Assembly (NCBI RefSeq): GCF_002259585.1
Contig: NZ_MWWS01000004.1
Coordinates: forward strand, 62,001-126,000
Length of the DNA: 64,000 nucleotides
Direction of reading: 5' to 3'
Source of the DNA: Bombiscardovia coagulans
GTDB taxonomy: Bacteria; Actinomycetota; Actinomycetes; Actinomycetales; Bifidobacteriaceae
Every line of letters starts with the position of its first letter. Position 1 is the first letter of the stretch. Under the pieces are notes generated by a model, which was not told the origin of the DNA, made no database searches, and worked only from the letters and a program-made list of their open reading frames with translations. The translations under genes and the position numbers were made by a program. Shown piece after piece: positions 1 through 20,513 of the stretch.

Positions 1-13
1 CATATATAATGGT
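1..13 (+). promoter_or_regulatory. Edge-truncated copy of the GACGC-ATA leaderless promoter box
   Basis: The window opens with C-ATATATAATGGT directly before the ATG at 14. If the missing bases are GACG, this is another copy of the box seen at 425-439, 2617-2632, 4033-4047, 8091-8105, 20236-20251 and 20275-20291. The 12-base gap from the C to the ATG fits the 10-12 range of the other copies. The key GACG lies outside the window, so this is inferred. Confidence 0.35.
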
Positions 14-268
14 ATGGCAAATATTACGACATTAACAACAGCACAAGCTGTCAGTTTAGAGCACATCATCCAAATTATGCGTTCATATGGTTTTGACCAT
101 GAAGGACAGGGAATACGTTCTTCGAACGTTCATATCGAAAATCATGAGTCATATATTGTTTTTTGGCTGGAAAGTGAACAATCAATAGCCAATGGAACAT
201 TAAATAGGAACGGCAAAGGCTTGTGGTGGCTTCGAGAAGAAGCACAACAAACTATTCACGTCCAGTAA
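14..268 (+). CDS. Small hypothetical protein (84 aa)
   Basis: I do not recognise this protein. It is soluble, with no membrane segment, and is rich in polar residues, with aromatic residues in the second half (IVFWLE, GLWWLREE). There is no Shine-Dalgarno sequence, and an AT-rich -10-like stretch lies immediately upstream, so it would be translated leaderlessly if real. Its 3' end overlaps the end of the convergent small membrane-protein gene by 17 bases. It probably belongs to the mobile element. Confidence 0.45.
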   Translation: MANITTLTTAQAVSLEHIIQIMRSYGFDHEGQGIRSSNVHIENHESYIVFWLESEQSIANGTLNRNGKGLWWLREEAQQTIHVQ

Positions 269-404
269 TAATATGGTACAAGCCTATAATGATACCGAGG
301 ATGTAACCAATAACATTGATTATAAAATTGAATGCCCACTTGAAAACAACCAAAAAAATCAATCCAATAATGGCACCGATAATGAACGCTATAGTGAAAA
401 CCAT
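252..404 (-). CDS. Small hydrophobic membrane protein (50 aa)
   Basis: The protein starts MVFTIAFIIGAIIG and is almost entirely hydrophobic, enough for one or two membrane helices, with a short polar tail (ITGRE). The ATG at 404 is preferred over an upstream in-frame start at 458 because AGGAAGG sits at the right distance before it and the longer form would run into the neighbouring gene's 3' end. A GACGC-ATA box lies just upstream, with an 11-codon leaderless ORF overlapping the start. Function unknown. Confidence 0.5.
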   Translation of the reverse strand: MVFTIAFIIGAIIGLIFLVVFKWAFNFIINVIGYILGIIIGLYHIITGRE

Positions 405-424
405 AATGAACACCTTCCTTTCAC
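389..424 (-). CDS. Candidate 11-aa leaderless leader ORF
   Basis: A GTG lies exactly 10 bases after GACGC in the upstream box and opens an 11-codon frame beginning M-K-G. It contains the downstream gene's Shine-Dalgarno and overlaps its ATG. The same layout (GACGC, 10 bases, GTG, Lys) recurs at 4048 and 8106. That supports a coupled leader peptide, but the frame is too short to test by composition. Confidence 0.3.
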   Translation of the reverse strand: MKGRCSLWFSL

Positions 425-439
425 TATTTATTATGCGTC
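425..439 (-). promoter_or_regulatory. GACGC-ATA leaderless promoter box (site A)
   Basis: On the minus strand this reads GACGC followed by ATAATAAATA and then GTG. The AT-rich part would act as the -10 element with transcription starting at or near the GTG. No good -35 hexamer is visible. An A/T-rich run (CAAAATTC) precedes the box, as at the copies in front of 2616, 4048 and 8106. Confidence 0.5.
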
Positions 440-1486
440 CGAATTTTGCATCATCCATTCATTATGCCACTGTTCAACCATTTTCGGATTCAAATGAAGG
501 CTTTTTGCAACTTTCTTCCTATCAAGATCCTTCGCGAATACTTCATTAAACAAAGCCTGTAAATCCAGTTTTGCTTCAGCACTAGGTTCAACACCGATAG
601 ACGGTATATCCTCTTGTACCTCTACTTTTTGTTCAACACCAGCAGATAAGAGATCATTAACTCTCTCTCCACGAAGAACTTGCTGCCCCCTTTTAAACAT
701 GACTTCAAAATCTTTACGACCGTTATATACTCTTCCATCAGGAAGCCGTTTTACACTGTCAGGACGCTTTGTATGAGGATTAGCGTTACGCCCATCTGAT
801 AGTCTCATACCTCCACCAAAAGAAACTCCTCGAACAATTTTATCGTTGATAAATTCCATCATATTCTCATCCCATAGTTGATCACGTATATGCGATGGAG
901 GCAAACCTCGTGTATGATGATCAATTTGCCATTGTTGAACACGTTGTTGGTATCGTAAACCAACTCTCATTTTATGCTCAGTCAGATTCCATGGTGGTAG
1001 TCGTAACACTCGTTGTATTTTCACTGGTGCTTTAACTGCGCTTGCAACGAGCTGAGGACTATAACAACGAGTCGGATCTATCGCTATCGCCTGACGTAAC
1101 CCAGCTAATCTTTCAAATAAATATCGTTCAGCTTCGCGTTGAGCATCAGAAACATTCAGCAAAAACTTGTTTAATTCACGAACCAATGGGCCAGGTTGAT
1201 CATTACTCCCTAATGCTTGTTCAACTAGCGCCATTTCTTGCTCTGGAGTACAAACCGGCTGATCGCGATAATCTGCGCTCAACCCAGGTTGAGTAGCCCG
1301 CAAATTAGATGCTAGCCACCGCCATTGTTTGTCATGACTGTCTAACTCGTTATACAAGCTGATTCTATTGCGTTTTGACTTCGGATTGTTTAAAACAGGC
1401 AAATCGCTTATATCATGCGACTTATAGTCATACTGTCCACCAGTGCCACCAGGGCTATGTTTTGGTTTTCGTGATGTGTTGCTCAT
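431..1486 (-). CDS. Hypothetical element protein, 351 aa, with C-terminal HTH-like segment
   Basis: I do not recognise the family. The N-terminus is basic and glycine-rich (KHSPGGTGGQYD), the middle is rich in Arg and Gln and probably alpha-helical, and the last 35 residues (KKVAKSLHLNPKMVEQW) resemble a helix-turn-helix. There is no membrane segment. The ATG at 1486 is chosen over a TTG nine bases earlier; neither has a strong ribosome site. It follows the sigma-like gene on the same strand after 17 bases and is probably in its operon, which suggests a nucleic-acid or regulatory role. Function unknown. Confidence 0.6.
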   Translation of the reverse strand: MSNTSRKPKHSPGGTGGQYDYKSHDISDLPVLNNPKSKRNRISLYNELDSHDKQWRWLASNLRATQPGLSADYRDQPVCTPEQEMALVEQALGSNDQPGPLVRELNKFLLNVSDAQREAERYLFERLAGLRQAIAIDPTRCYSPQLVASAVKAPVKIQRVLRLPPWNLTEHKMRVGLRYQQRVQQWQIDHHTRGLPPSHIRDQLWDENMMEFINDKIVRGVSFGGGMRLSDGRNANPHTKRPDSVKRLPDGRVYNGRKDFEVMFKRGQQVLRGERVNDLLSAGVEQKVEVQEDIPSIGVEPSAEAKLDLQALFNEVFAKDLDRKKVAKSLHLNPKMVEQWHNEWMMQNSDA

Positions 1487-1503
1487 GACAAGCAACTATG
1501 CGC

Positions 1504-2616
1504 TCATTCATCTTGAATGATGATCGCTCGTATAGTCGCTACTAGTTGATTCGCCTGATCCCGATACTTTTGATAACCTTTCGATCCTACTTGTGCTCCT
1601 CGAGGGCGAGTTTTCAGGTTCAACCGTTGGCATTCCTGATCCCAGACACTTTGCGATTCCACTCCGGGATATTGAAAAAGCTTTTGCTCGTATGCAAGTC
1701 CTGTACGAGCGTTTCTGAGAGTCATTCCTTCGCGGTTGAGAATGGCGTCAGCACGTAGATTCGGATGTTTTGCTACCAGATAGTCAGCAACCTGATGATC
1801 TAGAACTACAAGTTCTATGCTTTGTCTTAGATTTGGTTTAGGCCGTACTGATGCAAACAATGTTTTCAACTCTTGAGGATCGACCCCTGGTTGTATGATC
1901 TCTCCGTCAATTATACGTTTCAACATAGCTTGAGCTTGTTTGTATGTTACATCATGCTCATATAGCCATTGCATATTTGGTTTAAATTCTGTTAAACATG
2001 CTACTTCCGGGTTAGCGTTTTTATATGAACCTGTATATCTATCCATAATTTCTCTCTCTTTTCTATTTAAATATTTTAATGATTTACCAGAAAGCGCAGC
2101 CTTGGTTTCTTTCCACGCTTTTAGACCTCCGCAAGTACTATGTATGCCACTTTCATAGATTCCATTATGAAGGGGGAGGTATCGTGTTGTTTTTCTTTTT
2201 CCTTCTTTATAATCTATCCGTTGCTTATTATTAATTGTTTTTACTGCTTCGTCCCAAATCTCTGCTTCCGTATCATCTGTGACCACGTGTCCGAGACTTC
2301 TTATTTCAGCTTTATGCCGCTCAAAAGCATAGCCAGCACGTAAAAGGGTAATCGGCACATGGAATTCACGCTGGAAAATATGTTCCAATTTAATATTTCG
2401 AGCTATGTGAACAGTATATTTTAAAGTGAGTGTACGTTCAGGATGAAGTCTCATCACGTCGCATATTGCATTAATGATAGCTTCATGAACAAGGTCTTCA
2501 CTACGAGAGGGATTACAGATAAACGTGTTGAGCTTATATGCTGCACTATACTCATAGGAAGGATCTGAGTACTTTTGTATTACTCTTTCGAATTCGGCAG
2601 AAGTAATTGTTTTCAT
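1504..2616 (-). CDS. Sigma-70-like protein (putative element-encoded sigma factor), 370 aa
   Basis: Residues 38-90 resemble sigma region 2: SRSEDLVHEAIINA, then a basic and aromatic helix KYTVHIARNI, then VPITLLRAG. Residues 95-125 look like the region 2.4/3 junction, with an LGH-VVTDDTEAEI pattern like the LGR-PT-EEIA of sigma factors. Residues 180-195 (LKYLNRKEREIMDRY) resemble region 4.1. A C-terminal part of about 170 residues has no visible relative. The ATG at 2616 is preceded by the same GACGC-ATA box found before int, xis and others, so it may drive its own promoter. Length and tail are unusual for an ECF factor. The family call is by eye. Confidence 0.5.
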   Translation of the reverse strand: MKTITSAEFERVIQKYSDPSYEYSAAYKLNTFICNPSRSEDLVHEAIINAICDVMRLHPERTLTLKYTVHIARNIKLEHIFQREFHVPITLLRAGYAFERHKAEIRSLGHVVTDDTEAEIWDEAVKTINNKQRIDYKEGKRKTTRYLPLHNGIYESGIHSTCGGLKAWKETKAALSGKSLKYLNRKEREIMDRYTGSYKNANPEVACLTEFKPNMQWLYEHDVTYKQAQAMLKRIIDGEIIQPGVDPQELKTLFASVRPKPNLRQSIELVVLDHQVADYLVAKHPNLRADAILNREGMTLRNARTGLAYEQKLFQYPGVESQSVWDQECQRLNLKTRPRGAQVGSKGYQKYRDQANQLVATIRAIIIQDE

Positions 2617-2640
2617 ACTTCTTATATGCGTCCAAAATCG
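2617..2640 (-). promoter_or_regulatory. GACGC-ATA leaderless promoter box (site B) of the sigma-like gene
   Basis: On the minus strand this reads TTTTGGACGC, then ATATAAGAAGT, then the ATG at 2616: 11 bases between GACGC and the start, with no room for a Shine-Dalgarno. A TTGACC lies upstream, but it is 23 bases from TATAAG, too far for a standard -35. Confidence 0.55.
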
Positions 2641-2734
2641 TTAAAAGGAGGTCAAGCACCAATTGATACAACGGACGCGCTCTGTTAGCACTTGGTAAAC
2701 AACAGTGGATTGTCTCTATGGCATAGGTTCAGGT

Positions 2735-3805
2735 ATGGCACTACATGCAAATAGGAACGATCGTCGTCCATGTATTGAACTGTCCGCAACTATGGTCACA
2801 CTTATGCTGGTTCTGCTAGCCATCCAGCTTGGATGGCAGTATGTTGGCACTGGCCTTGATCAGGACACTGTTTCTCAGCAGCTAGAGACGAGAAGTAAAC
2901 AGCCAGTAAGTAGTCAGGTAGCAGACCGTATTGCTCCTATTCGTCATGATCCTCCGCCTTTGGAATCAGCTCCCATCCCCGGTGAGCTTTTTGCATATTT
3001 ACGTATACCAGTTTTTAGCACACAGTGGAGGCTACCTGTTCAAGAGGGAGTGTCTACGCAAGTTTTAGACAACCTAGGCGCAGGACATTATACAAACACA
3101 GCATTACCTGGGCAAAAAGGAAATTCAGCTTACGCTGGTCATGCTACCGTAACTGACTTAGGTACCATCAATCGACTACCAAGTCATGCGGAAATTATCG
3201 TAGAAACTAGCACTGCCTGGTATATCTATCAAGTGGTACAAGGTCAAGTGGTCCAGGACACCAATACTAGTGTTATTTCTCCTGAAGCCATTAAAACAGA
3301 ACGTGGATTAACTCTTACGACCTGCTGGCCTATGCTATCTCTCACTCCTACTCATCAACGATACGTATTACACGCAGCTTATGAAGGATGGATAGCAAAA
3401 ACAGATGGTATGCCAGAAAGTTTAGCAAACACTCATCTAACATCAACCGACCAAGTTGTTCGTACCGTTCATCAAATTTCTCGACAGATACAAGTGCCGT
3501 TTACTGGCATATTAGCGATTTGTTTCTTTATTATGTGGATGATTGCAGACACTATTGCTTGGATGCTGTGGCACCACCATAAATCTTTGCCCAAACAACA
3601 CTACAATTTATTCTCCTGGATATGGTGGTTGCAAGCCGGCCCTCCTGCTTGCAATGGTTGGAAACTCGTATTCAGCAGAATTATCAGAATCGGCTTGTAC
3701 ATACTGTTATTTACGGCAATCACATTTGCTTGTTGGCATTGGTGGTGTCCTTATGTGGCGAGCAATATAAATATGTTTTCTAGCCCTCACCCTCTCATCA
3801 AATAA
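2735..3805 (+). CDS. Sortase (class C/E-like transpeptidase), 356 aa
   Basis: Sortases cut a sorting signal on secreted proteins and join them to the wall or to other pilins outside the membrane. The protein has an N-terminal membrane helix (about residues 17-35) and a sortase fold with the catalytic triad visible: His136 in YAGHATV, Cys197 in LTTCWP, and Arg209 in HQRYVLH. Two C-terminal membrane helices (about 255-278 and 316-336) resemble pilus-type class C enzymes, while the TTC-P motif and domain resemble class E. The start is uncertain: GTG at 2705 is also possible. No pilin or LPXTG substrate gene is visible nearby, which is odd for a gene inside a mobile element. Confidence 0.82.
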   Translation: MALHANRNDRRPCIELSATMVTLMLVLLAIQLGWQYVGTGLDQDTVSQQLETRSKQPVSSQVADRIAPIRHDPPPLESAPIPGELFAYLRIPVFSTQWRLPVQEGVSTQVLDNLGAGHYTNTALPGQKGNSAYAGHATVTDLGTINRLPSHAEIIVETSTAWYIYQVVQGQVVQDTNTSVISPEAIKTERGLTLTTCWPMLSLTPTHQRYVLHAAYEGWIAKTDGMPESLANTHLTSTDQVVRTVHQISRQIQVPFTGILAICFFIMWMIADTIAWMLWHHHKSLPKQHYNLFSWIWWLQAGPPACNGWKLVFSRIIRIGLYILLFTAITFACWHWWCPYVASNINMFSSPHPLIK

Positions 3806-4026
3806 TTAGGCTACAAATATACGTCCCGAATATTAAAAAATCTGTAACAATCAAACATCAATCAGGTTATCTTGTTGTCCTTTACCTGTTTATCTCTAAT
3901 TGTTCAACAGATATAAGCAGTCAACAGCTAAGCATGCTCTATATAAAGAGCAGTGAATTCTATAAAACAATACTAGAAAACGGTACGTATTTTAATCCGA
4001 TAAGCACATTTTAGGACGCGCTCCTC

Positions 4027-4057
4027 AAATTGGACGCATATATATAAGTGAAGCCAT
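4027..4057 (+). repeat. 31-bp direct repeat, copy 1
   Basis: This segment matches 8085-8115 with one mismatch over 31 bases. It holds the promoter box, the GTG and the first two codons after it (Lys-Pro). The first copy precedes the recT operon and the second the Cys-rich paralogue pair. Confidence 0.85.
4033..4047 (+). promoter_or_regulatory. GACGC-ATA leaderless promoter box (site C) of the recT operon
   Basis: GACGC is followed by ATATATATAA and the GTG at 4048. A second GGACGC (4014-4019) lies 18 bases upstream but has no following AT-rich -10. The rest of the 3806-4032 spacer is AT-rich with a small hairpin (3936-3951) lacking a T run, and nothing else I can name. Confidence 0.55.
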
Positions 4058-4095
4058 TAACCAACGCTTATAGAGGAGGTCAGCATAATGGCTAG
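4048..4095 (+). CDS. Candidate 15-aa leaderless leader ORF overlapping the recT-operon start
   Basis: GTG ten bases after GACGC opens M-K-P-L and runs for 15 codons, through the strong GAGGAGGT site of the next gene and past its ATG at 4088. The same GTG-AAG-CCA start occurs at 8106. Translation of the leader could free or couple the downstream start. Confidence 0.35.
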   Translation: MKPLTNAYRGGQHNG

Positions 4096-4627
4096 TAAAA
4101 CAATGAAAGATATCAGCGATGAACTCGCTGATGGGGAAATTACCCTGTATGAGGCTGCTGAGCAGATTACCTTAGTGACGTCTATGCAAAAGCTGTTAAA
4201 ACAGCGGCTTGATGCATTAAAAGAATTTGTTACGGCATCGCTCGACCCGAAAGAGCATTTGACTACACATACGGGAGTGGTCACATATAAGCGTGGTGCT
4301 GAGCCGAAATGGAGAGTGAAAGACCCGCAGGCTTTCGCCATATGGCTTGAAGAGCATGGTGAAAGTGAAAGCGTGGAGCAAGTGCTGGTACCTGCCGAGC
4401 ATGTAACACAGCCAGCTGCGATCGAGCATCTTGTACATCAATATAAGGGTGAACAGCCTGACGGAGTGGAGTTCGCTGGCGGAACAAGCGACACCATAGC
4501 TATAAGCAAAGTAAAAGCTTGGTCTGACATTTTTGAGGATCAGCAAATGGTAGATGCCGCAGCACAAATGCTTGGTATTGAATCAAGTGCAGCAAACAAG
4601 GAGGAAGACGAATGGGACAAGATTTAA
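4088..4627 (+). CDS. Phage-type early protein, 179 aa, upstream of recT
   Basis: An acidic, helical protein with a run resembling the coiled N-terminal part of phage Gp157-like proteins (ELADGEITLYEAAEQI, then a helix with KQRLDALKEF). No catalytic motif is visible. It starts at an ATG after a strong GAGGAGGT site and overlaps the recT-like gene by 16 bases, so the two are co-translated. Genes of this kind usually sit beside phage annealing proteins; the Gp157 likeness is weak. It could be a recombination or nuclease-modulating partner. Confidence 0.7.
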   Translation: MASKTMKDISDELADGEITLYEAAEQITLVTSMQKLLKQRLDALKEFVTASLDPKEHLTTHTGVVTYKRGAEPKWRVKDPQAFAIWLEEHGESESVEQVLVPAEHVTQPAAIEHLVHQYKGEQPDGVEFAGGTSDTIAISKVKAWSDIFEDQQMVDAAAQMLGIESSAANKEEDEWDKI

Positions 4628-5454
4628 CATCTACTACTGAATCGATTTTACATGCTCAAATGCAGTGGGCGAAGCTTGCGCAAAGCAGCAATATTATCCC
4701 GGATGCTTACAAGGGGAAACCTGACAATATCCTGGTGGCACTCGGATTCGGGCAGTCTATGGGGTTAAGTCCAGCGGAGAGCTTGTATCGGATTAATGTT
4801 ATTAAAGGTAAGCCGACGATGAGTGCCGAGCTGATAGCAGCTCAAGTACGTAAAGCAGGTCATAAGCTGCGCATCACCAAAGATGAGAAGAATGTGAGTG
4901 TGACAGCAACCATCATCCGCTGTGATGACACGGACTATCCAATTAGTGTGACACGAGATAAAAACTGGGTAGCAAGTATGGGGCTGACAGACAATCTCAA
5001 TTACAAGAAGCAGCCGATGACTATGCTGACATGGCGTGCAATTAGTGCTGTAGCACGGGAAGCCTGCTCTGAAGCTTTATATGGTGTGGCGTACACGCCT
5101 GATGAAATGCAAGATTTCGAATTCGATAGTGACATTGATATGAAATTGGAAACTACTAATCCTGAATCTTCCACACCTACCGCTGATGATACAGAAGCCC
5201 CTGTGTCAGCTGAAGTGATGGCTTCTAATGAGCAGAGGACTAAGGTCACGCAGCTTATGAAAGAGGGTGGTGTCACTAATGGCGAGCAAGCCCAGACTGC
5301 TTTTCAAGCGCTTACAGGTAAGCCACTAACCTCAAGTAAACAGCTAAGCGCTGAAGACGCTGAAACCTTACTAAGTGCCCCTGATCTTGTGGTGTCTCGC
5401 ACCAAGGAAGCACTATGTATGAAGTTTCGCAGTTTACATAACATCGTGTCCTGA
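4612..5454 (+). CDS. RecT-like single-strand annealing protein, 280 aa, 3' end rearranged
   Basis: The N-terminal 100 residues carry the RecT-family signature: KPDNILVALGFGQSMGLSP, then YRINVIKGKPTMSAELI, then RKAGH. These proteins coat single strands and anneal homologous DNA during phage recombination. The middle (PMTMLTWRAISAVAREAC) also fits. A 35-base duplication (5381-5415 and 5451-5485) shifts the frame, so the last residues (MKFRSLHNIVS) are novel. Without it the frame would run to 5505 and end in RTKEALARKVTV with a 4-base overlap onto the next start. The core is intact, so function may be kept. Confidence 0.8.
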   Translation: MGQDLTSTTESILHAQMQWAKLAQSSNIIPDAYKGKPDNILVALGFGQSMGLSPAESLYRINVIKGKPTMSAELIAAQVRKAGHKLRITKDEKNVSVTATIIRCDDTDYPISVTRDKNWVASMGLTDNLNYKKQPMTMLTWRAISAVAREACSEALYGVAYTPDEMQDFEFDSDIDMKLETTNPESSTPTADDTEAPVSAEVMASNEQRTKVTQLMKEGGVTNGEQAQTAFQALTGKPLTSSKQLSAEDAETLLSAPDLVVSRTKEALCMKFRSLHNIVS

Positions 5455-5485
5455 TCTTGTGGTGTCTCGCACGAAGGAAGCACTA
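5381..5485 (+). repeat. Tandem duplication (35 bp, period 70) at the recT 3' end
   Basis: Positions 5381-5415 recur at 5451-5485 with one mismatch, separated by 35 bases of unrelated sequence. The 70-base period is not a multiple of three, so the insertion changes the recT reading frame. The second copy keeps the original coupling to the next gene. Confidence 0.9.
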
Positions 5486-5502
5486 GCAAGGAAGGTGACA
5501 GT

Positions 5503-5793
5503 ATGAGTATACAGAGTGATATCTGTCGTATTACATATGAGGAGCATACCGATTGGGCATACTGGAATGTGAAATGCGATGCGGTGGGATGCAATACAAC
5601 TGTCGCAGTATCAAAGTACCCACTACCAGATAATGCGTATGACCACGACTTAATTGATGTGGATAAGGCTTGTTCTGCCGAGGAGGCTAAAGACTACGCA
5701 ATCAGGGAAGCCGGTTGGCAGTTAGGGACCAGAGGCATTCAGTGGGGACACGTCTATTGTCCCAAGCACCGCAGTCCTACAGAAAATGAGTGA
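5503..5793 (+). CDS. Hypothetical element protein, 96 aa, with scattered Cys
   Basis: No known family recognised. Four cysteines plus His (KCDAVGCN near the N-terminus, VYCPKH near the C-terminus) suggest a possible single zinc site. AAGGAAGGTGACAG precedes the ATG. The start overlaps the pre-duplication recT stop, and the stop overlaps the next start (GTGA). It is part of the recT-led operon. Confidence 0.65.
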   Translation: MSIQSDICRITYEEHTDWAYWNVKCDAVGCNTTVAVSKYPLPDNAYDHDLIDVDKACSAEEAKDYAIREAGWQLGTRGIQWGHVYCPKHRSPTENE

Positions 5794-6293
5794 TTATAAT
5801 GATGGAATTAGGCTTTATGCAGGATTATTACACGAAATCTGACATAAGTAAAGCATATTTTTACTGCGATACATGTCATATGGTCCGGTATCGATCTGAC
5901 TTGTGCAAGGATACGAGTAGACCGTGTCCCCTGTGCGAGGATACATCAAATCTGTATGAGCGGTATATGACCGCATTAGATACTGTAGATGCTCGCTGTA
6001 AGTCGCGGAACGATCATTATACGGGCGATAGCCAAGGTTTTCCCAGCCTAGGACCGATATTCGCTGGTAATCCTCTCGGAACAACCACGCACATACGTTT
6101 TTCCCTACAGGATGATCCCACTACCTATCCATTACTTGCTACTCGCAAGACAATCTCAACTATGTGGAAGGCCGACTATCAGGATTTGCTCTACTCCATA
6201 CTCACAGGACAGGATTTAGCGCCGGTTCGCACTCGAGCTGAGCGGCTCGTCGATTTGGTGGTCAGAGACATGGCAAGTAGGAGCGAATCATGA
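5790..6293 (+). CDS. Cys-rich zinc-ribbon-like element protein, 167 aa (family member 1 of 3)
   Basis: The N-terminal half has YCDTCH and, about 20 residues later, CPLC: two CxxC pairs typical of a zinc ribbon. The layout matches the tandem proteins at 8182 and 8719: ribbon, then a helix (YERYMTALDTV), a FPSLGP stretch, a mid domain, and a C-terminal helix ending RLVDLVVRDMASR (versus AQAVVDLCRHDLRER). Sequence identity is low, so this is a divergent paralogue. The GTG start overlaps the upstream stop by four bases. Function unknown. Confidence 0.65.
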   Translation: MIIMMELGFMQDYYTKSDISKAYFYCDTCHMVRYRSDLCKDTSRPCPLCEDTSNLYERYMTALDTVDARCKSRNDHYTGDSQGFPSLGPIFAGNPLGTTTHIRFSLQDDPTTYPLLATRKTISTMWKADYQDLLYSILTGQDLAPVRTRAERLVDLVVRDMASRSES

Positions 6294-6901: not shown

Positions 6902-6930
6902 ACATATCGATAAACGGAGGACTAAATCAA

Positions 6931-7116: not shown

Positions 7117-7141
7117 ACCGCCAGAAAATCAAGAGGTCAGT

Positions 7142-8101
7142 ATGAGTCTTACGACGGACATCCCAATGTTGGCAATAAAGTATAAGACTTTTCGAAGAAA
7201 GAAATACACAATGACTAACGAAAATCTCATTAGAGAATGGTACGAAGAACTCGATATTAATGATTTTCGATATCTACATATTCGTGTAGTCATGGAAAAC
7301 GGGGACATTTTTTGTAACAAATTGTCCCCAATGTCCGACGATGACTATGCTGTAGGTGTCAGCGTAGATAATGAAAAGCTCCCTCTTGAAATTCCGATTC
7401 TCATGCGATCTTGCGCTGAAAAGTTTGTACGATATTCCTTTACCGGAATCCCCAAACCTGTACAACGTTTAACTAACTGGGAGCCTTGCCTGGGTGTTCA
7501 AGAGGTATCTCTTGTCTATGATGAGCGCGAATGGACTGTAATAAACCTTGAAGATGCATGTCCAGGTGATGCGGTCGTCATCAATAACTGTCGATACAGC
7601 GTGCAAAGTGCACCAGATCAAGGTCATATAACAATACGCACATATCCTCAATGTGTGGTGGAAGTTTCGTGTGATGCTGTGACTGTTGCTTTACGACCTA
7701 TATCAACACCACTAATACCAGCCAATCCTGGATTTTATATGAATAAAGACCAATCCATCTGGATGTACACACGATATCGTAAATGGTGGTGTCTTGCAGG
7801 CGAAAATGATTCGACTGAACAGGTGGCACCCGATGACATCACACCTATATGTTTTAAGCAAACAGCTACTCCACCATTTGAAACCACTGATGCAATACCA
7901 GATAGCGCACAAGTGGAATTTTATAAGTGTAAAAAAGGCAAAATTTGGATGCGCACACAATATAAAAATTGGTACGTACTCAATGCTTGGAATCGTCCTG
8001 TCAAAGTAAAGCCAGATAAGCCCACAAACTATATGCCGCTTAGGCGTGTGACTCCTGTGCAGGTCGAAAAACAGAGAGAGCAGAAAATTGGACGCATATA
8101 G
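7142..8101 (+). CDS. Hypothetical element protein, 319 aa, with a repeated Trp/Tyr-rich motif
   Basis: No known family recognised. The C-terminal third holds two copies of a beta-like unit: SIWMYTRYRKWWCL near residue 200 and KIWMRTQYKNWYVLN near residue 270. The start at 7142 follows AAGAGGTCAGT. A longer frame opens at 7055 but would overlap the Cys-rich gene by 62 bases, so it is rejected. Its stop codon lies inside the second promoter box at 8091-8105. Confidence 0.55.
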   Translation: MSLTTDIPMLAIKYKTFRRKKYTMTNENLIREWYEELDINDFRYLHIRVVMENGDIFCNKLSPMSDDDYAVGVSVDNEKLPLEIPILMRSCAEKFVRYSFTGIPKPVQRLTNWEPCLGVQEVSLVYDEREWTVINLEDACPGDAVVINNCRYSVQSAPDQGHITIRTYPQCVVEVSCDAVTVALRPISTPLIPANPGFYMNKDQSIWMYTRYRKWWCLAGENDSTEQVAPDDITPICFKQTATPPFETTDAIPDSAQVEFYKCKKGKIWMRTQYKNWYVLNAWNRPVKVKPDKPTNYMPLRRVTPVQVEKQREQKIGRI

Positions 8102-8115: not shown

Positions 8116-8150
8116 CGTTTAAACCGGTGTCTTCTAAAAAGCATAGTTAA
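8106..8150 (+). CDS. Candidate 14-aa leaderless leader ORF
   Basis: The GTG sits ten bases after GACGC and opens M-K-P-S-F, sharing M-K-P with the leader at 4048. It ends with TAA 31 bases before the next gene's preferred ATG at 8182. The shared start may simply follow from the 31-bp repeat. Confidence 0.3.
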   Translation: MKPSFKPVSSKKHS

Positions 8151-14281: not shown

Positions 14282-14498
14282 CATGTTTTGGATAAGCTGT
14301 ATTAGTTTCTTCATCCTGTTAGACATGGTTTGCGCGGGAATGGAATACCAACAAGCTGCTTGGGGACATATATTGGTCACAATGTCTTGTGCTTTAGTGT
14401 TCGCTTGCACGCTTTATTTGAAGCACTCCTCAAGGAAGCTGCTTACCAGGATTGTTTCTGAAGACAGGATTAGCTCGATAACAGAGGAACCATTATGA
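14274..14498 (+). CDS. Small membrane protein, 74 aa, two helices
   Basis: Two hydrophobic stretches (ISCISFFILLDMVCAG and ILVTMSCALVFACTLYL) form a likely hairpin in the membrane, with a short basic and acidic tail. Overlaps the exonuclease gene by eight bases and the HNH gene by four. It could be a small holin-like or effector protein, but nothing proves that. Confidence 0.5.
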   Translation: MRDMFWISCISFFILLDMVCAGMEYQQAAWGHILVTMSCALVFACTLYLKHSSRKLLTRIVSEDRISSITEEPL

Positions 14499-14845
14499 GC
14501 CAACCGAGTGCAAAGACATGTCGTCTAGTAGATCGGAGAGATAACTGCCGATGTATCCGATGCGGCAAAAACTTGGAAATGGTAGCTGGTAGTCGTCATC
14601 ACAGAAGACTGCGCTCGCATCCTTGGCCGGGCCTACATTTGCCGTCGAATCTCGTACTGCTGTGTGGGTCTGGGGATACGGGCTGCCATGGTTGGGTGCA
14701 CGCTCACCCGTCAGAAGCCCGTTTAGAAGGTTATATGGTGCATGCTTGGGAATATCCGCAATCGAAGCCTATTTATACCATGCGCCACGGGTGGGTGCTT
14801 TTAGATGATGAGGGTGAATATCACCCAGTAAACATGAATAACTAA
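14495..14845 (+). CDS. HNH endonuclease-like protein, 116 aa
   Basis: CIRCGKN, then SRHHRRLRSHPW, HLPSNLVLLCG and GCHGWVHAHP follow the HNH order (CxxC zinc pair, His-His, Asn, Cys-His). Phage HNH proteins of this type often sit beside terminase genes and nick DNA for packaging. Here no terminase follows and the small-gene array begins instead, so the role may differ. The start overlaps the upstream stop (ATGA). Confidence 0.8.
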   Translation: MSQPSAKTCRLVDRRDNCRCIRCGKNLEMVAGSRHHRRLRSHPWPGLHLPSNLVLLCGSGDTGCHGWVHAHPSEARLEGYMVHAWEYPQSKPIYTMRHGWVLLDDEGEYHPVNMNN

Positions 14846-14861
14846 CAGAGAGGAGTAAATA

Positions 14862-15272
14862 ATGGATAATGAGGGAAAGAATCTTGGGAAAGTTTTCGCT
14901 ATTTATAATAGCGAGTATCCGGTTTTCGGAATTGAGTTTATTCGTGTAGAGGATGAAGATCAGATTTATGAGGTTGCTCAGCAATCAAGTGAGCTTTTTA
15001 ATGATGAGGAAATTGATGTAATTCGTGAAAGACTTATAGCGATTCGGGTCGAGTATTTAGATGATTATGAGGATTTAGACTCTCCTGATGCGATTAAAGC
15101 TTATTCGCAATACGGATGGCAAACGTCTGAATCTGAGCTTGTGCCCGATGGGAGTTTATCGGATGGCGACTCGATTAGCAACTCTGATTTATCTACGTAT
15201 CAAGAAGACCAATACGACCGGTGCGAGACAACGTACCCGGATAAATATAACCCCGGGGCGGTGGAAGCATGA
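14862..15272 (+). CDS. Acidic hypothetical protein, 136 aa (TYPDKYxP family, copy 1)
   Basis: A very acidic protein (VEDEDQIYEVAQQ, LDDYEDLDSPDAIKAY) ending CETTYPDKYNPGAVEA. The next gene encodes a relative with the same middle (DDxxDLxSPDxI) and end (TYPDRYKPEEAA), so this is a duplicated family. Acidic small proteins in mobile elements often act as DNA mimics against host nucleases, but no such evidence exists here beyond charge. GAGAGGAG precedes the start. Confidence 0.55.
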   Translation: MDNEGKNLGKVFAIYNSEYPVFGIEFIRVEDEDQIYEVAQQSSELFNDEEIDVIRERLIAIRVEYLDDYEDLDSPDAIKAYSQYGWQTSESELVPDGSLSDGDSISNSDLSTYQEDQYDRCETTYPDKYNPGAVEA

Positions 15273-15655
15273 CACAACAAATGAATATCAGCGACAAAGT
15301 GTTTGTGGTTATGGCAGGAGATGACCCTGAGGATACGCAGCTTGTTCGGGCTGAGAGTGCTAATAAGGCAAGGTCTATGTGTGACGGCATGTCGATGGTG
15401 GAGTACAGGTATTTGCGTGCTAAGAGGGTGCCGTGGCTTGATGATTTTGTTGATTTGGGTAGTCCTGACGTGATTATGGCTTGTTTGCGGCATGAGTGGT
15501 TTGTGGATAATCATGGTTTTATCCCAGAGTATAGCGATAACGAGCTTATAGATGCAGACGTTATAGCTGCTGAAGGTGAATCAGGCTATCGACGGTACGC
15601 ACAGCTTATTGGAGCTACTTACCCGGACCGGTATAAGCCCGAGGAGGCGGCATGA
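15269..15655 (+). CDS. Acidic hypothetical protein, 128 aa (TYPDKYxP family, copy 2)
   Basis: Paralogue of the preceding gene: VFVVMAGDDPEDTQLVRA aligns with the first copy's N-terminus, DDFVDLGSPDVIMAC with its middle, and TYPDRYKPEEAA with its end. The encoded tail supplies GAGGAGGCGGC as the ribosome site for the next ATG. No known function. Confidence 0.55.
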   Translation: MTQQMNISDKVFVVMAGDDPEDTQLVRAESANKARSMCDGMSMVEYRYLRAKRVPWLDDFVDLGSPDVIMACLRHEWFVDNHGFIPEYSDNELIDADVIAAEGESGYRRYAQLIGATYPDRYKPEEAA

Positions 15656-15906
15656 GTGAGACAGAGTATGAGGTTGATCGTGCGACTGGCGAAACATGGC
15701 ATTCTCACGGTGAGGGGGCTGCGATCTCGCACGAAATCTGGGCTGATGATCCTGCTTTACCGTCCCTTAACGTGACCAAAACAGGCGGGATGCTGTGCGT
15801 AGAGCTATACACGGAGCACGGGAGCATGAATACCAGCATCAGCGTCACGAATACAAGAAGACTGGCTCAATGGATACTCGAGCACACGAGTGAGGAGGAA
15901 GCATGA
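15652..15906 (+). CDS. Hypothetical protein, 84 aa (LAQWILEHTSEEEA family, copy 1)
   Basis: The protein is a paralogue of the one at 16295, sharing WADDPALPSL versus WSDAPTPSL, LCVELYTEHG versus LCIEIYTEQG, SISVTNTRRLAQW versus SLSVTNARRMAQW, and an identical end. Probably a compact alpha/beta domain. The last codons (Glu-Glu-Glu-Ala) double as a Shine-Dalgarno for the next gene. Function unknown. Confidence 0.55.
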   Translation: MSETEYEVDRATGETWHSHGEGAAISHEIWADDPALPSLNVTKTGGMLCVELYTEHGSMNTSISVTNTRRLAQWILEHTSEEEA

Positions 15907-16298
15907 CACGACAGATAGATCATATGGATACAGAGAATATGGTATGCCCTTATTGCGGGTATGAGGAGGACGAAACGTTGGAGTATCCCGACTATGGTGT
16001 TGAGGAGTGCCCAGAATGCGGGCGTGAGTTCGTTTTTTCATCGGATACGATACGATACTTCTCTTCATCCAGGTACTCGGGAAGGACTAGTGAAGGGTAC
16101 GCTTTCGGGCCAAAGATGGGGGCCTCGCACCTAGTCAAGAAGTGTGGATTGTGCGGCAAGGTGCTCGATAGTGATCACGACTATCCAGCATTGTATCAAC
16201 GGTGTCCCGTTTGTCAGAAGATCGTATGCCATGAGTGTGAGGCGGACCGCAGACCGTGCTGCGAAGAATACAAGCGCTGGAGCGAGGAGGAAGCATGA
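15903..16298 (+). CDS. Double zinc-ribbon protein, 131 aa
   Basis: Five cysteine clusters: VCPYCGYEE, ECPECGREF, KCGLCGK, RCPVCQK and VCHECEADRRPCCEE. The first two make one zinc ribbon, the next two a second, and the last may form a third. Such tandem ribbons usually bind nucleic acid or other proteins. It sits between the two related WILEHTSEEEA genes and ends in the same Glu-Glu-Glu-Ala. Not assignable to a named family. Confidence 0.6.
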   Translation: MTRQIDHMDTENMVCPYCGYEEDETLEYPDYGVEECPECGREFVFSSDTIRYFSSSRYSGRTSEGYAFGPKMGASHLVKKCGLCGKVLDSDHDYPALYQRCPVCQKIVCHECEADRRPCCEEYKRWSEEEA

Positions 16299-16576
16299 AG
16301 ATCACAGGCGATACGCCACTTAAAGAGTATTTCGTCGATCAGAACGGTGAAGTATGGCAATATTGCAGATGGCGCACTCTCAATGAAAGAGCTGTGAAAT
16401 TCAACGAGACCTGGTCTGATGCTCCTACTCCGTCTCTTAGTGTTATCAATCTTGACCAAGAGCTGTGTATAGAGATATACACAGAGCAAGGAGGAATAAG
16501 TCACAGTCTCAGCGTCACGAATGCGCGAAGAATGGCTCAATGGATTCTCGAACACACGAGCGAGGAGGAAGCATGA
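16295..16576 (+). CDS. Hypothetical protein, 93 aa (LAQWILEHTSEEEA family, copy 2)
   Basis: Paralogue of the 84-aa protein at 15652 with a different N-terminus (MKITGDTPLKEYFVDQNGEVW) and a conserved C-terminal half. The start is set by the ATGA overlap with the ribbon gene and the GAGGAGGAAGC ribosome site. Confidence 0.55.
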   Translation: MKITGDTPLKEYFVDQNGEVWQYCRWRTLNERAVKFNETWSDAPTPSLSVINLDQELCIEIYTEQGGISHSLSVTNARRMAQWILEHTSEEEA

Positions 16577-16761
16577 TAGGCCCAATTATATTACTGATAG
16601 CAGCCGTACTTGGCTTCATAGCATCGATGATTGCGATGAAGCGGGACGAAAGCGATTCTTATGTTGCACCACGCTTGTGGGGTACCGCAGCGTTTTCTTG
16701 TCTCGTAGCCGCATGTGCTGTTTTCTTTATGATAATGATTAAGGTTTTCGGATGGGCGTAA
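16573..16761 (+). CDS. Small membrane protein, 62 aa (MIGxII family, copy 1)
   Basis: N-terminal helix MIGPIILLIAAVLGFIASM and a second helix FSCLVAACAVFFMIMI, with a short charged loop (KRDESD) between. The gene at 16826 begins almost identically at DNA and protein level (MIGKIILLIVALIFF). Same ribosome-site module as its neighbours. Confidence 0.5.
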   Translation: MIGPIILLIAAVLGFIASMIAMKRDESDSYVAPRLWGTAAFSCLVAACAVFFMIMIKVFGWA

Positions 16762-16829
16762 AAACGTTCGAAATAGTGGCAGTTAAAGTGATCATCGACG
16801 AAGACCGTTGTACGGGGGAGAAGGCATGA
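16752..16829 (+). CDS. Candidate 25-aa coupled mini-gene
   Basis: ATG at 16752 overlaps the end of the previous gene and the stop overlaps the next ATG (ATGA at 16826), exactly the coupling used along this array. The 25-residue product contains EIVAVKVIIDED. It also provides GGGGGAGAAGGC as the next gene's ribosome site. It may be only a coupling device. Confidence 0.3.
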   Translation: MGVKTFEIVAVKVIIDEDRCTGEKA

Positions 16830-17059
16830 TAGGCAAGATCATTTTGCTGATAGTAGCACTGATTTTCTTCATACTGTACATGATGGCATTGCTACAAATA
16901 GTTTGCTACATAGTAAGCATGATGGCACTGGCGGCAATGACAGTCCTGTTGCCGCTTGATAGCGAATCGAACAAATTTCTCTTTGTTTGTTCGTCGAGTG
17001 CTGCGCTTGGGATTGTCTTGTTGATTATGGTTTTTGGCTTGATGTCGAGGTTCGTATGA
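16826..17059 (+). CDS. Small membrane protein, 77 aa (MIGxII family, copy 2)
   Basis: It has three hydrophobic stretches: IILLIVALIFFILYMMALLQIV, SMMALAAMTVLLPL, and AALGIVLLIMVFGLM. It is related at the N-terminus to the gene at 16573 and shares SxALGIVLLI with SIGIVILID of the gene at 17142. No function known. Confidence 0.5.
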   Translation: MIGKIILLIVALIFFILYMMALLQIVCYIVSMMALAAMTVLLPLDSESNKFLFVCSSSAALGIVLLIMVFGLMSRFV

Positions 17060-17145
17060 GTGAACAAAGTAAGCAGTCTCACACTTTGCAAAAATATCAA
17101 AGTGCAAGACAACCTACCCGAATAAAAATAACCCAAGAAAAATGA
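17056..17145 (+). CDS. Candidate 29-aa mini-gene derived from a frame-shifted TYPDKYxP tail
   Basis: ATGA overlaps occur at both ends. Positions 17103-17134 match 15222-15253 in 28 of 32 bases, the tail of the acidic family copy 1, but read in another frame. This is either a decayed copy kept as a coupling ORF or a small new gene. Confidence 0.25.
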   Translation: MSEQSKQSHTLQKYQSARQPTRIKITQEK

Positions 17146-17339
17146 AAAGCATGGCAGTCAAGATTCGGTTTTTGCTGATATTAGCGATGATTTGTTACAC
17201 AGCATGGATGGCAACAATGATACTGCATGAGTTCTTTGATAAGAAATCAACCAAATTACTCTTGGTTGAGCGGTGGAGTCGCTCGATTGGGATTGTCATA
17301 TTGATTGACCTAATCACGGTAGCGTGGATTCTTGCATGA
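17142..17339 (+). CDS. Small membrane protein, 65 aa
   Basis: Two helices (IRFLLILAMICYTAWMATMIL and GIVILIDLITVAWIL) around a basic loop. The arrangement resembles the MIGxII membrane proteins upstream. It is the last member of the coupled array; the ATG overlaps the preceding mini-ORF's stop. Confidence 0.45.
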   Translation: MKSMAVKIRFLLILAMICYTAWMATMILHEFFDKKSTKLLLVERWSRSIGIVILIDLITVAWILA

Positions 17340-17402
17340 GTATCGAGTATAGGATGTCTTGCTAGCGCTTCATCGGAAATTCGTTAGAAGGTGTACCTAA
17401 TA

Positions 17403-18038
17403 ATGAGGATGCGTGATATAGACGTACGACAGGCGATGCGTTCTACGTTGCAACACCGCAAGGAAAATGAGTCGGCACTCATACTGGACGAGTTTGATTT
17501 GTGTGGTGAGGTACGAGTCGATATCGCGGTTCTCAATGGTCATTTATGTGGGTATGAGCTTAAAAGCGCAAGCGACAATCTCAAAAGATTGCCGAAACAG
17601 GTGCGATATTATTCAGCGGTGCTGGACTATTGCAATCTTGTTGTAGCTGAAAACCATCTTGATGAGGCTTTAAACATGATCCACGACTTCTGGGGAGTAT
17701 ACATCGCAAGACAAACCAGTAATGGACGGACCTTCATCAGGAAGCTGCGGAATCCAAAATCAAACAAATCTAATATAGATCCACACGCATTGGTCCAGCT
17801 CTTATGGAGAGACGAAACCATTGATATTCTGACTCATTACGGTTTCGACCGGGGTGTTCGCTCTAAAACTAGAACTACATGTTGGGACAGGATGGTGGAC
17901 AGCTTTTCTCTTCCTCAACTACGAAAATTGGTACACACCCAGTTAAAGACGCGCACCAATTGGAGGTGTGACAATCTTTCTCTTTCAAACCCAGACACTA
18001 CGCCAGAAATAGAAGGTCACACGCTGACCTGTGATTAG
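17403..18038 (+). CDS. sce7726-family protein (possible PD-(D/E)XK nuclease), 211 aa
   Basis: MRDIDVRQAMRSTL, then EVRVDIAVLNGHLCGYELKSASDNLKRLPKQ fit the sce7726 family, with VDIAV-x-GYELKS reading as a PD-(D/E)XK-like core. YYSAVLDYCNLVVAENH and WGVYIAR also belong to the family. Members occur scattered in mobile elements with no settled function. The ATG at 17403 follows AGAAGGTG; GTG at 17391 is possible. The gene stands alone, 63 bases after the small-gene array. Confidence 0.72.
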   Translation: MRMRDIDVRQAMRSTLQHRKENESALILDEFDLCGEVRVDIAVLNGHLCGYELKSASDNLKRLPKQVRYYSAVLDYCNLVVAENHLDEALNMIHDFWGVYIARQTSNGRTFIRKLRNPKSNKSNIDPHALVQLLWRDETIDILTHYGFDRGVRSKTRTTCWDRMVDSFSLPQLRKLVHTQLKTRTNWRCDNLSLSNPDTTPEIEGHTLTCD

Positions 18039-18384
18039 CCTGGATGCGAAGAGCAAGCCAGCGTGGTGAATACTGCTGCTTCGAAAGGCATTCAAGTGCT
18101 GTAGAAGTGTGGACTGATAAGTACGGAACAAACTGGTTTCAAACATCAAATGGTAAAGAATAGTGTCCCGAACATCATTATGAAGTAACCCCAGCGCTCG
18201 CAAGCACGGGAAGAAAAGCATGCAAGTCATTACAACTTGAAAACATAGATTTAGCATTAGCATATCAATAATAACTGTATGCACTCAAAATCGCTGGGTT
18301 TTCGCTATTGATTCCAGCATATAGCTGTCAATATATACCTACCAGATACAGATAGCAACCAGAAAGGACACTAGCATGTTATGT
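18039..18384 (+). other. Gene-poor spacer
   Basis: No open frame with a ribosome site on either strand. I see only AT-rich sequence leading into a promoter-like pair at 18385-18414. Confidence 0.5.
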
Positions 18385-18414
18385 TTGCTTTTATGGACAC
18401 TATCGTGATATAAT
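18385..18414 (+). promoter_or_regulatory. Promoter of the candidate small RNA
   Basis: TTGCTT (18385-18390) and TATAAT (18409-18414) with an 18-base spacer. This is the clearest standard promoter in the element, and no ORF follows it within the terminated transcript. Confidence 0.55.
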
Positions 18415-18420
18415 AATAAC

Positions 18421-18500
18421 ATTAGTTCATTATTAGACATTGCTTTGGCTATATTGAGTTAAGGGTTCTAAGCATGCACTTGGAGCCCTTAACTCTTTTT
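18421..18500 (+). ncRNA. Candidate small RNA of about 80 nt
   Basis: A standard promoter lies just upstream and a Rho-independent terminator closes the transcript 80 bases on. No ORF with a start site fits between them. The loop of the terminal hairpin (about 20 bases) contains GCATGC and could be the accessible part. The position next to int is like that of regulatory RNAs in phages; target unknown. Confidence 0.4.
18456..18500 (+). terminator. Rho-independent terminator
   Basis: GAGTTAAGGG (18456-18465) pairs perfectly with CCCTTAACTC (18486-18495) and is followed by TTTTT. It ends the candidate small RNA. Confidence 0.75.
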
Positions 18501-18626
18501 AATAAGAGTCGTGACTCGACATTTCAGTTTATAAACATTTGGCTGCCAAACTATCCTAATGAGTATAATTTGAATACATACGTACATCAGATATATTGTT
18601 TTACAGACATACTAAGGAGCATGATT

Positions 18627-18809
18627 ATGACAATACAATCGCAACAGCTTCCATGGTCTGTACAAATGAACGAGAAATCACGACAACTTTTAGAGAATCC
18701 TGAAGAATATTTTCGTAGGGCTGATGAAAACAATTCCAAGTCTATCAACGAAGAGAAAATTTCTTTCAAGAAACTGTTTTCTCATTTAACTCAGGTCTTC
18801 CATTCTTGA
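18627..18809 (+). CDS. Small hypothetical protein, 60 aa
   Basis: AAGGAG is eight bases before the ATG at 18627. The product (QLPWSVQMNEKSRQLLENPEEYF, given here in parts: LPWSVQMNEKS and LLENPEEYFRRA) is helical and resembles the short NPEEYF-type proteins encoded near integrases in actinobacterial elements. No function known. It is convergent with int, 160 bases away. Confidence 0.55.
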   Translation: MTIQSQQLPWSVQMNEKSRQLLENPEEYFRRADENNSKSINEEKISFKKLFSHLTQVFHS

Positions 18810-18969
18810 GCACAGGCGATGATTAAATCATCCTGAGAACAATAAGCTCAACAAGCAGGTTCCATCTAATTTGTTCAGATAAAACCTTTGCATAATGTAT
18901 TGAATTTACCGTAACACTCTCAGCAGGTGATATACACAACAACCGCATTAAACAGCATTGAAAAAACAA

Positions 18970-20235
18970 CTACAGCATAATGTCTTTGCTAATCACGTCA
19001 GCAACTTCGTTAGTACGTTGTGGCCACAGATCAGCATACGTGTCAAGAGTCTCCGTAGCTGAAGCATGCCCCAAAACTGCCTGTAATGTTTTCACATCTG
19101 CACCAGCTTTAATAGCCAATGACGCGTATGTATGACGCAAGGAATGAACAACCAGACCATCTATGACATCCATACCTGTTTTCTGCAACGCTGGAACCCA
19201 AACACGCATCCTCCAATTATTTGTTGTTTGCCGTCCGCCACGAGGACCACGAAACAGGTAATCCGAATCAGCATGACCAGACAATAACAATCGCAAACAG
19301 GGGAGAAGCGGCTCAGGAATAGGTACAATCCTCGTCCTATTCCCCTTCGGCAAGGTTTCCACTAAACGCGATTGTGCGTCAATAGACTGCGTCCTTAAAA
19401 TACGTATACTTCGTGATTTCAAATCAACATCAGCACACCGAAGCGCGAGCGCTTCACCTATTCGTATACCCGTGTATGCAAGCACATACACTAAGCTAGC
19501 GTTCGGCGCGTCCATTGCATCTGCCAGTGTTTTTACTTCTGTTGGAGTTAGATATATACGTTGTATTGCTTGTTTAACACGAGGTATCTTGACCGGGTTA
19601 ACTGGATTATCGTTAATCCAGTGCAACCGTACTGCTGTATCAAGTATTGATTTCAAAACAATTTTTACAATGGACCGTATAGAAGCTGCTGCTAACGGGC
19701 GAGCCTGGCCTGTTTTCCCAGCATACGGGGCAGTACCTTGGCCTAATTGAGCTACCCATTGTTGAATACCATCGACTGTGATTTGTCCTACTGGTACCTG
19801 TCCCCATCTAGGTAGTATCCATGTTCTTACTTCTCTGCGGTACCTGGCTTCAGTAGAACCTTTAATGGTCCCAGGTAAGCCTTCTAACCAGATGTCAGCA
19901 ACCTTGCTCAATGGATTCTTTTTGTCCTTGTTGTTCACATATTTACCGGACAGAATAGTGTCTTCGCATTCTACTTGAAATAATTCTGCTTCAGAACGGG
20001 ACGCGAAATTCTTTTTTTGACGTTTACCGTCCGACCACCAGTACACGCTCCACCGTAAACCCTTCCCATAATCAGTTGTCCTGAACTCTGTAGGTACAGC
20101 GGCTTTCATAGGGTCAGAAGCCCTAGTTAAAGCGCGTTTTACCTGGCTTGACGGTGCGACCTTTACCTTATTACCGTCGGGTAATGTTGTATAAACACTT
20201 TTTAACCAACGGTCGTATATCCATGCTTTAGCCAT
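18970..20235 (-). CDS. int: Tyrosine-type integrase of the element, 421 aa
   Basis: The protein catalyses site-specific integration and excision. An N-terminal arm-binding/SAM-like domain (YGKGLRWSVYWWSDGKRQKKN, then a core-binding helix region around GTIKGSTEARYRREV) precedes the catalytic domain with Arg in AYTGIRIGEAL, HSLRHTY, LGHASATETL and the nucleophile Tyr at about residue 400 (DTYADLW). The start at 20235 (MAKAWIYDRW) is preferred to 20253 and would be leaderless behind a GACGC-ATA box. Adjacent tRNA-Pro is the likely target. Intact. Confidence 0.93.
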   Translation of the reverse strand: MAKAWIYDRWLKSVYTTLPDGNKVKVAPSSQVKRALTRASDPMKAAVPTEFRTTDYGKGLRWSVYWWSDGKRQKKNFASRSEAELFQVECEDTILSGKYVNNKDKKNPLSKVADIWLEGLPGTIKGSTEARYRREVRTWILPRWGQVPVGQITVDGIQQWVAQLGQGTAPYAGKTGQARPLAAASIRSIVKIVLKSILDTAVRLHWINDNPVNPVKIPRVKQAIQRIYLTPTEVKTLADAMDAPNASLVYVLAYTGIRIGEALALRCADVDLKSRSIRILRTQSIDAQSRLVETLPKGNRTRIVPIPEPLLPCLRLLLSGHADSDYLFRGPRGGRQTTNNWRMRVWVPALQKTGMDVIDGLVVHSLRHTYASLAIKAGADVKTLQAVLGHASATETLDTYADLWPQRTNEVADVISKDIML

Positions 20236-20251
20236 ACATAGAATATGCGTC
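20236..20251 (-). promoter_or_regulatory. GACGC-ATA leaderless promoter box (site E) of int
   Basis: On the minus strand GACGC is followed by ATATTCTATGT and the int ATG: 11 bases. TATTCT serves as -10. It forms one arm (20243-20252) of a perfect 10-base inverted repeat with 20274-20283 (ATATGCGTCA and TGACGCATAT), 21 bases apart. Confidence 0.55.
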
Positions 20252-20274
20252 ACGTGTTATTGCGTGAATACCAT

Positions 20275-20291
20275 GACGCATATATATAGTT
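20275..20291 (+). promoter_or_regulatory. GACGC-ATA leaderless promoter box (site F) of xis
   Basis: GACGC, twelve bases (ATATATATAGTT), then the xis ATG at 20292 with no ribosome site. It faces the int box, so int and xis should respond to the same factor. Confidence 0.55.
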
Positions 20292-20513
20292 ATGGATACT
20301 AAAAACACAAACAATACTAATGGAATTGAAACATCAGAGCTTCTTACTCCACAGGAAGTCGCTTCTCTCTTAGCTATACCGATATCCACATTAGCTCGGT
20401 GGCGGCAGGAACAGCGCGAAATAGCATATATACGTTTCGGCAAGTATGTCAGGTATCGACGTGAAGATGTGAACTCGTATATAACCGACCATACGGTAGA
20501 ACCTAGGGAATGA
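20292..20513 (+). CDS. xis: Excisionase-like HTH protein, 73 aa
   Basis: LLTPQEVASLLAIPISTLARW is a MerR/Xis-type helix-turn-helix, followed by IRFGKYVRYRREDVNSYI, the usual wing and second helix of HTH_17 excisionases. Size and place between int and the tRNA fit an excision factor that bends DNA at the attachment site. Divergent from int, with 56 bases between the two starts. Confidence 0.82.
   Translation: MDTKNTNNTNGIETSELLTPQEVASLLAIPISTLARWRQEQREIAYIRFGKYVRYRREDVNSYITDHTVEPRE

Follow-up and report, generated by a model that had tools for sequence, protein, structure and literature searches.

Introduction

The streptococcal alternative sigma factor SigX (ComX) uses one short box (CIN-box, TACGAATA) placed before many genes, and prophage prx genes carry this box too, according to excerpts of a report on that system (PMC6224593). 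Streptococcal integrative and conjugative elements (ICEs) of the ConjTn1549 family are described as encoding a sigma factor that may regulate transfer (PMC4701971). In Akkermansia muciniphila and Bifidobacterium pseudolongum, 10–15% of starts are reported to be leaderless, according to an excerpt of a third paper (PMC4782308). Here, a window of 64,000 nucleotides (nt) from Bombiscardovia coagulans (G000:C10:62001–126000, G000 being the window's own genome) was analysed, the beginning of which belongs to an ICE-like island at a tRNA-Pro gene. A set of genes across this element is preceded by one of two boxes, GACGCATA (class A) or CGCATAG (class B); Nx denotes below the number of bases between a box and an ATG.

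When compared by eye, the CIN-box and GACGCATA have six of eight letters in common. The SigX regulon, however, is a host-encoded competence system, and the leaderless geometry and the two classes are features of the present element that the excerpts on SigX do not describe. The excerpts on the ConjTn1549-family ICEs deal with a sigma gene only, whereas the present element combines an element-wide box regulon with a pair of related sigma-like proteins and with boxes of two classes. Similarly, the leaderless starts excerpted for B. pseudolongum belong to general transcripts of the species, whereas the present ones are tied to a box found mainly in elements. The island is like actinobacterial and bifidobacterial ICEs in its integrase, excisionase-like gene, tRNA attachment site, and VirB4-like and FtsK-like ATPases. 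Published work on bifidobacterial ICEs appears to concern mostly resistance and mobilome surveys. No paper on the GACGCATA box or its regulon was found in a literature search covering few subscription journals and no preprints, in which the eight-letter string itself occurs in 258 papers, and neither the element-wide, two-class box set without a −35 element nor its tie to leaderless starts was met there. Should the element prove to have a promoter language of its own, the members of its regulon could be predicted from sequence alone, and its sigma-like proteins would provide a single testable switch controlling excision and transfer. A very short promoter with constant spacing that yields leaderless mRNAs would, if confirmed, also offer a compact system for −35-less initiation. 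The box further helps to recognise relatives, such as a 186,745-bp member in a virus collection.

Conserved Box and Its Distance from Start Codons

A preliminary description of this DNA had reported GACGC, followed by an AT-rich −10-like stretch, at six places before an ATG or GTG codon and at a seventh cut by the window edge, and had proposed leaderless promoters read by one factor. All six complete sites and the cut seventh are present at the positions given there, and the seventh is a full GACGCATA in the genome (G000:C10:61997–62004). GACGC as the motif unit had to be abandoned, as GACGC alone occurs 81 times against 84 expected, and the loose pattern GACGC-N8–14-RTG (29 against 20.3 expected) is marginal, being matched by 6 of 100 shuffles. 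The conserved unit is GACGCATA, found 7 times in the window against 1.67 expected and in none of the 100 shuffles at that level. Six of these seven lie inside the element part; after the only one beyond it (33023–33030, minus), the ATG opens just 10 codons. Four of the seven claimed start codons stood, namely the ATGs at 14, 2616 (minus), 20235 (minus) and 20292, each of which opens an open reading frame (ORF) of 73–421 codons 8 or 9 nt 3′ of GACGCATA. The other three, GTGs at 424–422 (minus), 4048 and 8106, open 11, 15 and 14 codons, respectively, and are no gene starts.

The last four bases of the edge-cut box (1–4, plus) are placed at N9 to ATG 14 of an ORF of 84 amino acids (aa; 14–268), the G057 orthologue of which is likewise leaderless behind class A. 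The box at 2625–2632 (minus) stands at N8 to ATG 2616 of a 370-aa sigma-like protein (1504–2616, minus), a gene that has a class A box in front of it in all five copies compared. A tyrosine integrase (18970–20235, minus; Phage_integrase, PHROG integrase) starts at the box-led ATG 20235, at N8 to the box at 20244–20251 (minus), and the box at 20275–20282 (plus) stands at N9 to ATG 20292 of an excisionase-like HTH_17 protein of 73 aa (20292–20513, plus). The box at 4033–4040 (plus) precedes the recT operon, which is not leaderless, its first gene beginning at ATG 4088 behind AGGAGG (4074–4079). Behind the box at 432–439 (minus) lies a small gene (252–404, minus), most likely starting from ATG 404 behind GGAAGG, and the box at 8091–8098 (plus) is followed by the short frame of GTG 8106. 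The idea of leaderless promoters is thus retained for a subset of boxes only, at which the fixed spacing suggests that transcripts probably start at or next to the codon.

The spacing was evaluated over 84 boxes in six element stretches, in which 38 boxes had, at N8–10, an ATG that begins an ORF of 50 codons or more, and none had such an ATG at N6, N11, N13 or N14. Among the 84 are boxes from two closely related stretches, those of G031 and G040; without G031, the ratio is 33 of 74. For 400 control words of the same composition (with CpG), a mean of 0.69 ATG-led ORFs was obtained at N7–12, with a maximum of 15, against 40 for the box. In the N8–10 slot of five stretches, GACGCATA tops all 8-mers, with 33 of its 74 occurrences. 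A third frequent word of this slot, GCATTCCGG, was rejected, since its occurrences are mostly copies of a G057 repeat, not gene starts. This repeat, GCATTCCGG-N9-ATGCATNNGTATGCAT, is present in eleven copies on both strands of the G057 element (e.g., C1:1097916, 1129741 and 1229946).

The related elements, in other bifidobacteria, have a GC content of 0.62–0.64 and the same box followed by GC-rich spacers, so the AT-rich −10 part of the preliminary description does not belong to the conserved motif. It could matter locally in the window's own element, where TANNNT occurs in 8 of 16 leaderless sites (6 of 7 at leaderless GACGCATA sites) and TTGA in 1 of 16. Of the 42 leaderless sites in G057 and G040, 3 contain TANNNT and 1 has TTGA in the −35 zone; host SigA promoters, with a TANNNT −10 and a TTGA-type −35, are therefore not recognisable in the GC-rich relatives. 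Above threshold, the GC-rich elements conserve only two bases directly 5′ of the box (G; G or T), and their leaderless sites show no −35 column. The preliminary description was right in this respect: site alignments give no common −35, with boxes on both strands across the element. A Shine-Dalgarno-like motif (GGAG, GAGG or AGGA) is missing from 55 of the 58 leaderless class A and B spacers in three genomes. Where no ATG occupies the slot, the box is often followed by a gene with a Shine-Dalgarno sequence, at varied distances from its start codon, these assignments being permissive. At least two such calls in G057 (1150942 and 1103040, of which the second follows a class B box) fall within a longer ORF in the same frame, and the recT-operon pair was consequently not counted among conserved groups. 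The geometry suggests that the box is probably placed relative to the transcript start and that leaderless genes are those whose ATG coincides with that start.

Two Box Classes

Class B was found via the core CGCATA and consists of CGCATAG, 8–9 nt and ATG, with the bases 5′ of it free. Its existence leaves the earlier proposal of a single factor reading GACGC incomplete. The element holds 9 of the 21 class B sites in the G000 genome (0.7 expected), and the G057 element holds 12 of 25 (1.0 expected); these enrichments were first counted on the discovery data, for which the IMG/VR record described below, with 13 sites against 0 for the backward motif, gives a partly independent check. Two of the 12 G057 element sites are also class A, with the sequence GACGCATAG. 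Divergent class B pairs are arranged on the palindrome CTATGCGCGCATAG in G057 and G040. In the window, the class B box at 1496–1502 (minus) lies directly 3′ of the stop codon of the 370-aa gene and 9 nt before ATG 1486, the box-led start of a second sigma-like protein of 351 aa (431–1486, minus; the "354-aa family"), and its orthologues are class B too.

Between orthologues of diverged elements, the class was kept in 7 of 7 leaderless groups including G000; groups kept only between near-identical elements were left uncounted. Class A comprises the 370-aa and 84-aa proteins, and class B the VirB4-like, FtsK-like, ParA-like and 321-aa proteins and the 354-aa family. A Shine-Dalgarno-led pair of 359/357 aa (class A) agrees in class as well. 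Among the wider paralogues of the 354-aa family, class A leads one copy in G057 and the counterpart of that copy in the IMG/VR record. Genes led by class A encode a primase-polymerase, a PD-(D/E)XK nuclease, an SNF2 helicase, four methyltransferases, an exonuclease, the integrase, the excisionase and the recT operon, and those led by class B encode the VirB4-like ATPase, a lysozyme/CHAP hydrolase, and the FtsK-like and ParA-like ATPases. Several class B proteins have no Pfam match, so this functional split is a tendency.

Box Enrichment in Related Elements

The element holds 18 of the 56 GACGCATA copies in the G000 genome, against 2.2 expected from the rest of the genome. Homologues of the 370-aa protein were detected in 4 of 189 family genomes, the window's own included, and in a 186,745-bp IMG/VR record; by tblastn, 40 of 130 candidate element ORFs match the relatives' stretches. 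In G057, 36 of the 73 boxes in the genome fall within its 177-kb element (3.0 expected), and 21 of 24 GACGCATA-N7–11-ATG sites lie in one 169-kb stretch. The borders assigned to the G057, G040 and G031 elements come from visual inspection of boxes and homology, not from attachment sites, and the G031 contig contains 29,980 bases of N. The IMG/VR record has 39 copies of GACGCATA against 5 for a backward control; an exact IMG/VR search with the long G000-style motif gave 0 matches. In elements that encode a distant VirB4 and in which the 370-aa gene was not detected, the stretches read contain 0–1 class A boxes.

Several related places were observed in addition. The record, IMGVR_UViG_2687453622_000001, is closely related to the G057 element, in which conjugation-type ATPases are encoded, and perhaps represents a conjugative element deposited among viruses. 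The VirB4-like gene is interrupted at one and the same position (query residue ~298) in G057:C1:1165440–1169036 and G029:C27:23917–27537, in both genomes by an insert of about 1.6–1.7 kb with one open frame, an arrangement that suggests an intein-like insert. Class A boxes at N9 before an integrase, together with a divergent small gene, were seen at G000:C8:16905, G139:C1:828018–828114 and G026:C1:217432–217528, places where no 370-aa homologue was found; the integrase is broken in G139 and has 422 aa in G026. This suggests remnants or small elements borrowing the reader. A complete G000-style class A box outside the element, at G000:C14:36247, stands at N9 to an ATG that opens a 64-aa ORF, some 0.7 kb away from a tRNA-Lys(ctt) gene; it may be left over from another element or mark a host gene that was captured.

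Two Sigma-Like Proteins

The likeliest readers of the boxes are probably the two adjacent, distantly related sigma-like proteins, each of which is led by its own class. Their kinship was obtained by hhalign, which aligned the 351-aa protein with the 370-aa family at a probability of 94.3% (E 1e-7). The 370-aa protein weakly resembles sigma-70 region 2 (E 0.015 in a genome scan; E 0.019–0.09 in libraries), and sigma rows appeared for it in a structure comparison, with the FecI register as a further sign. By hhalign, no significant match to sigma region 2 was obtained for this protein, and no sigma row was aligned to its C-terminal half in the structure comparison, where the region 4 helix-turn-helix would be located. 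For the 351-aa protein, a low-confidence model places sigma chains high, and no significant Pfam or NCBIfam match was found. Which protein reads which box would follow from these weak, mutually consistent signals.

Profile comparison with known sigma factors gave nothing significant, Foldseek gave nothing at E 0.001 against PDB and BFVD, and sequence searches of PDB yielded no sigma factor. A tblastn search for the 370-aa protein in plasmids and phages gave no match, and an order-wide profile search of 396 genomes recovered it from the window's own genome alone. The sequence showed no kinship between the reader and any one sigma group. A phage-type single-subunit RNA polymerase was also looked for, and no PF00940 match was present in the genome, the control genomes being equally without one, which makes this negative uninformative. 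A resemblance to the yeast mitochondrial promoter was considered and set aside, as the relatives do not conserve the AT-rich part.

Interpretation of the Boxes

We favour, at a probability of roughly 0.58, the reading that the boxes are the core of element-specific promoters recognised by an element-encoded sigma-like factor. Such a factor would direct core RNA polymerase of the host to GACGCATA in the absence of a −35 element, with initiation approximately 8–10 nt 3′ of the box. An ATG at the start spot would give a leaderless mRNA, and an ATG elsewhere a leader with a Shine-Dalgarno-led gene. Class A would govern integration, DNA processing, DNA modification and the 370-aa sigma-like gene, and class B the transfer genes and the second sigma-like gene. 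The 370-aa gene is itself led by class A, so it is probably self-activating. As a tentative extension, a family of large bifidobacterial conjugative elements may run its life cycle on a private two-class code, in which two paralogous, highly diverged and self-activating sigma factors would read GACGCATA (DNA processing, modification, integration and excision) and CGCATAG (the mating apparatus), with no −35 and largely leaderless transcripts. Three observations complicate this picture. One of the 400 control words is more frequent than the box in the six stretches (91 against 84). Whole-genome counts of GACGCATA-N7–11-ATG fail to separate carriers, with 17 in G116, 16 in G112 and 15 in G117 against 17 in G000 and 13 in G031; the sites in the first three genomes are scattered over contigs, and hence it is the clustering that discriminates. 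Lastly, 36 kb of G173, a distant VirB4 relative, contain 1 class A and 2 class B cores and 6 other CGCATA-led ATG-ORFs, and this element may have a weaker or different box set.

The same boxes could be operators, to which a repressor or activator of the element binds beside host-sigma promoters, the spacing then reflecting overlap with the promoter. In favour of this, master regulators are common in integrative elements, the box is short and does not vary, and a TATA-like sequence follows the window's own boxes (TANNNT in six of seven). No host promoter is visible beside the box in G057 and G040, however, where the −10 and −35 signals amount to the 3 and 1 of 42 given above; moreover, the box is not palindromic and its distance from the start is constant within 1–2 nt, and we consider operators doubtful. 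Recognition by a host sigma factor, either RpoD or a single ECF-like factor, without any reader from the element seems improbable. It would fit the presence of RpoD and an ECF-like factor in the genome, the box-led integrase modules in genomes without a detected 370-aa homologue, the complete box beyond the element at C14:36247, and leaderless starts described as common in one Bifidobacterium (PMC4782308), but the boxes are clustered in elements rather than spread over genomes, they number 0–1 (class A) in the distant VirB4 elements, and TANNNT is nearly absent from the GC-rich ones. That the spacing arises from chance and AT-richness, or that the box acts in translation, is hardly credible. 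The loose pattern of the preliminary description was only marginal in the window, as would be expected of chance, but the enrichment of GACGCATA, its N8–10 peak and its conservation before orthologues of 28–63% identity are opposed to this; if transcripts start at the ATG, the box lies outside the RNA, and leader-bearing genes follow the box at varied distances.

Element Borders and Other Features

The ICE-like island contains the hallmark of site-specific integration, an integrase with a 38-bp direct repeat at a tRNA gene. The repeat at 20606–20643 overlaps the 3′ end of tRNA-Pro(ggg) (20608–20682, minus) and has its second copy at G000:C8:12699–12736, which indicates that the element spans C10:1–82.6 kb and C8:1–12.7 kb, about 95 kb plus any unassembled DNA between the two parts. 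Conjugation ATPases are represented by one VirB4-like AAA_10 and two FtsK-like (FtsK_SpoIIIE) proteins, some of these matches being near the cut-off, and a ParA-like protein is also encoded. No relaxase was found among the element proteins scanned, which took in a minority of its ORFs. One box-led stretch is present in three copies (G000:C10:323, C10:30967 and C8:485), identical over the bases compared; two of them are near contig ends, and this repeat may therefore be the reason why the element is split between contigs. A sortase gene (PF04203) is located at 2705–3805 (plus) of the window, and a 1850-aa ORF without a Pfam match (G000:C10:20793–26345) has the appearance of a surface protein. 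An N-terminal motif like RKPKxSPGGTGGQYD is common to several otherwise different element proteins, encoded at 431–1486 (minus) of the window and at G000:C10:30469, 35673 and 54486 and C8:618.

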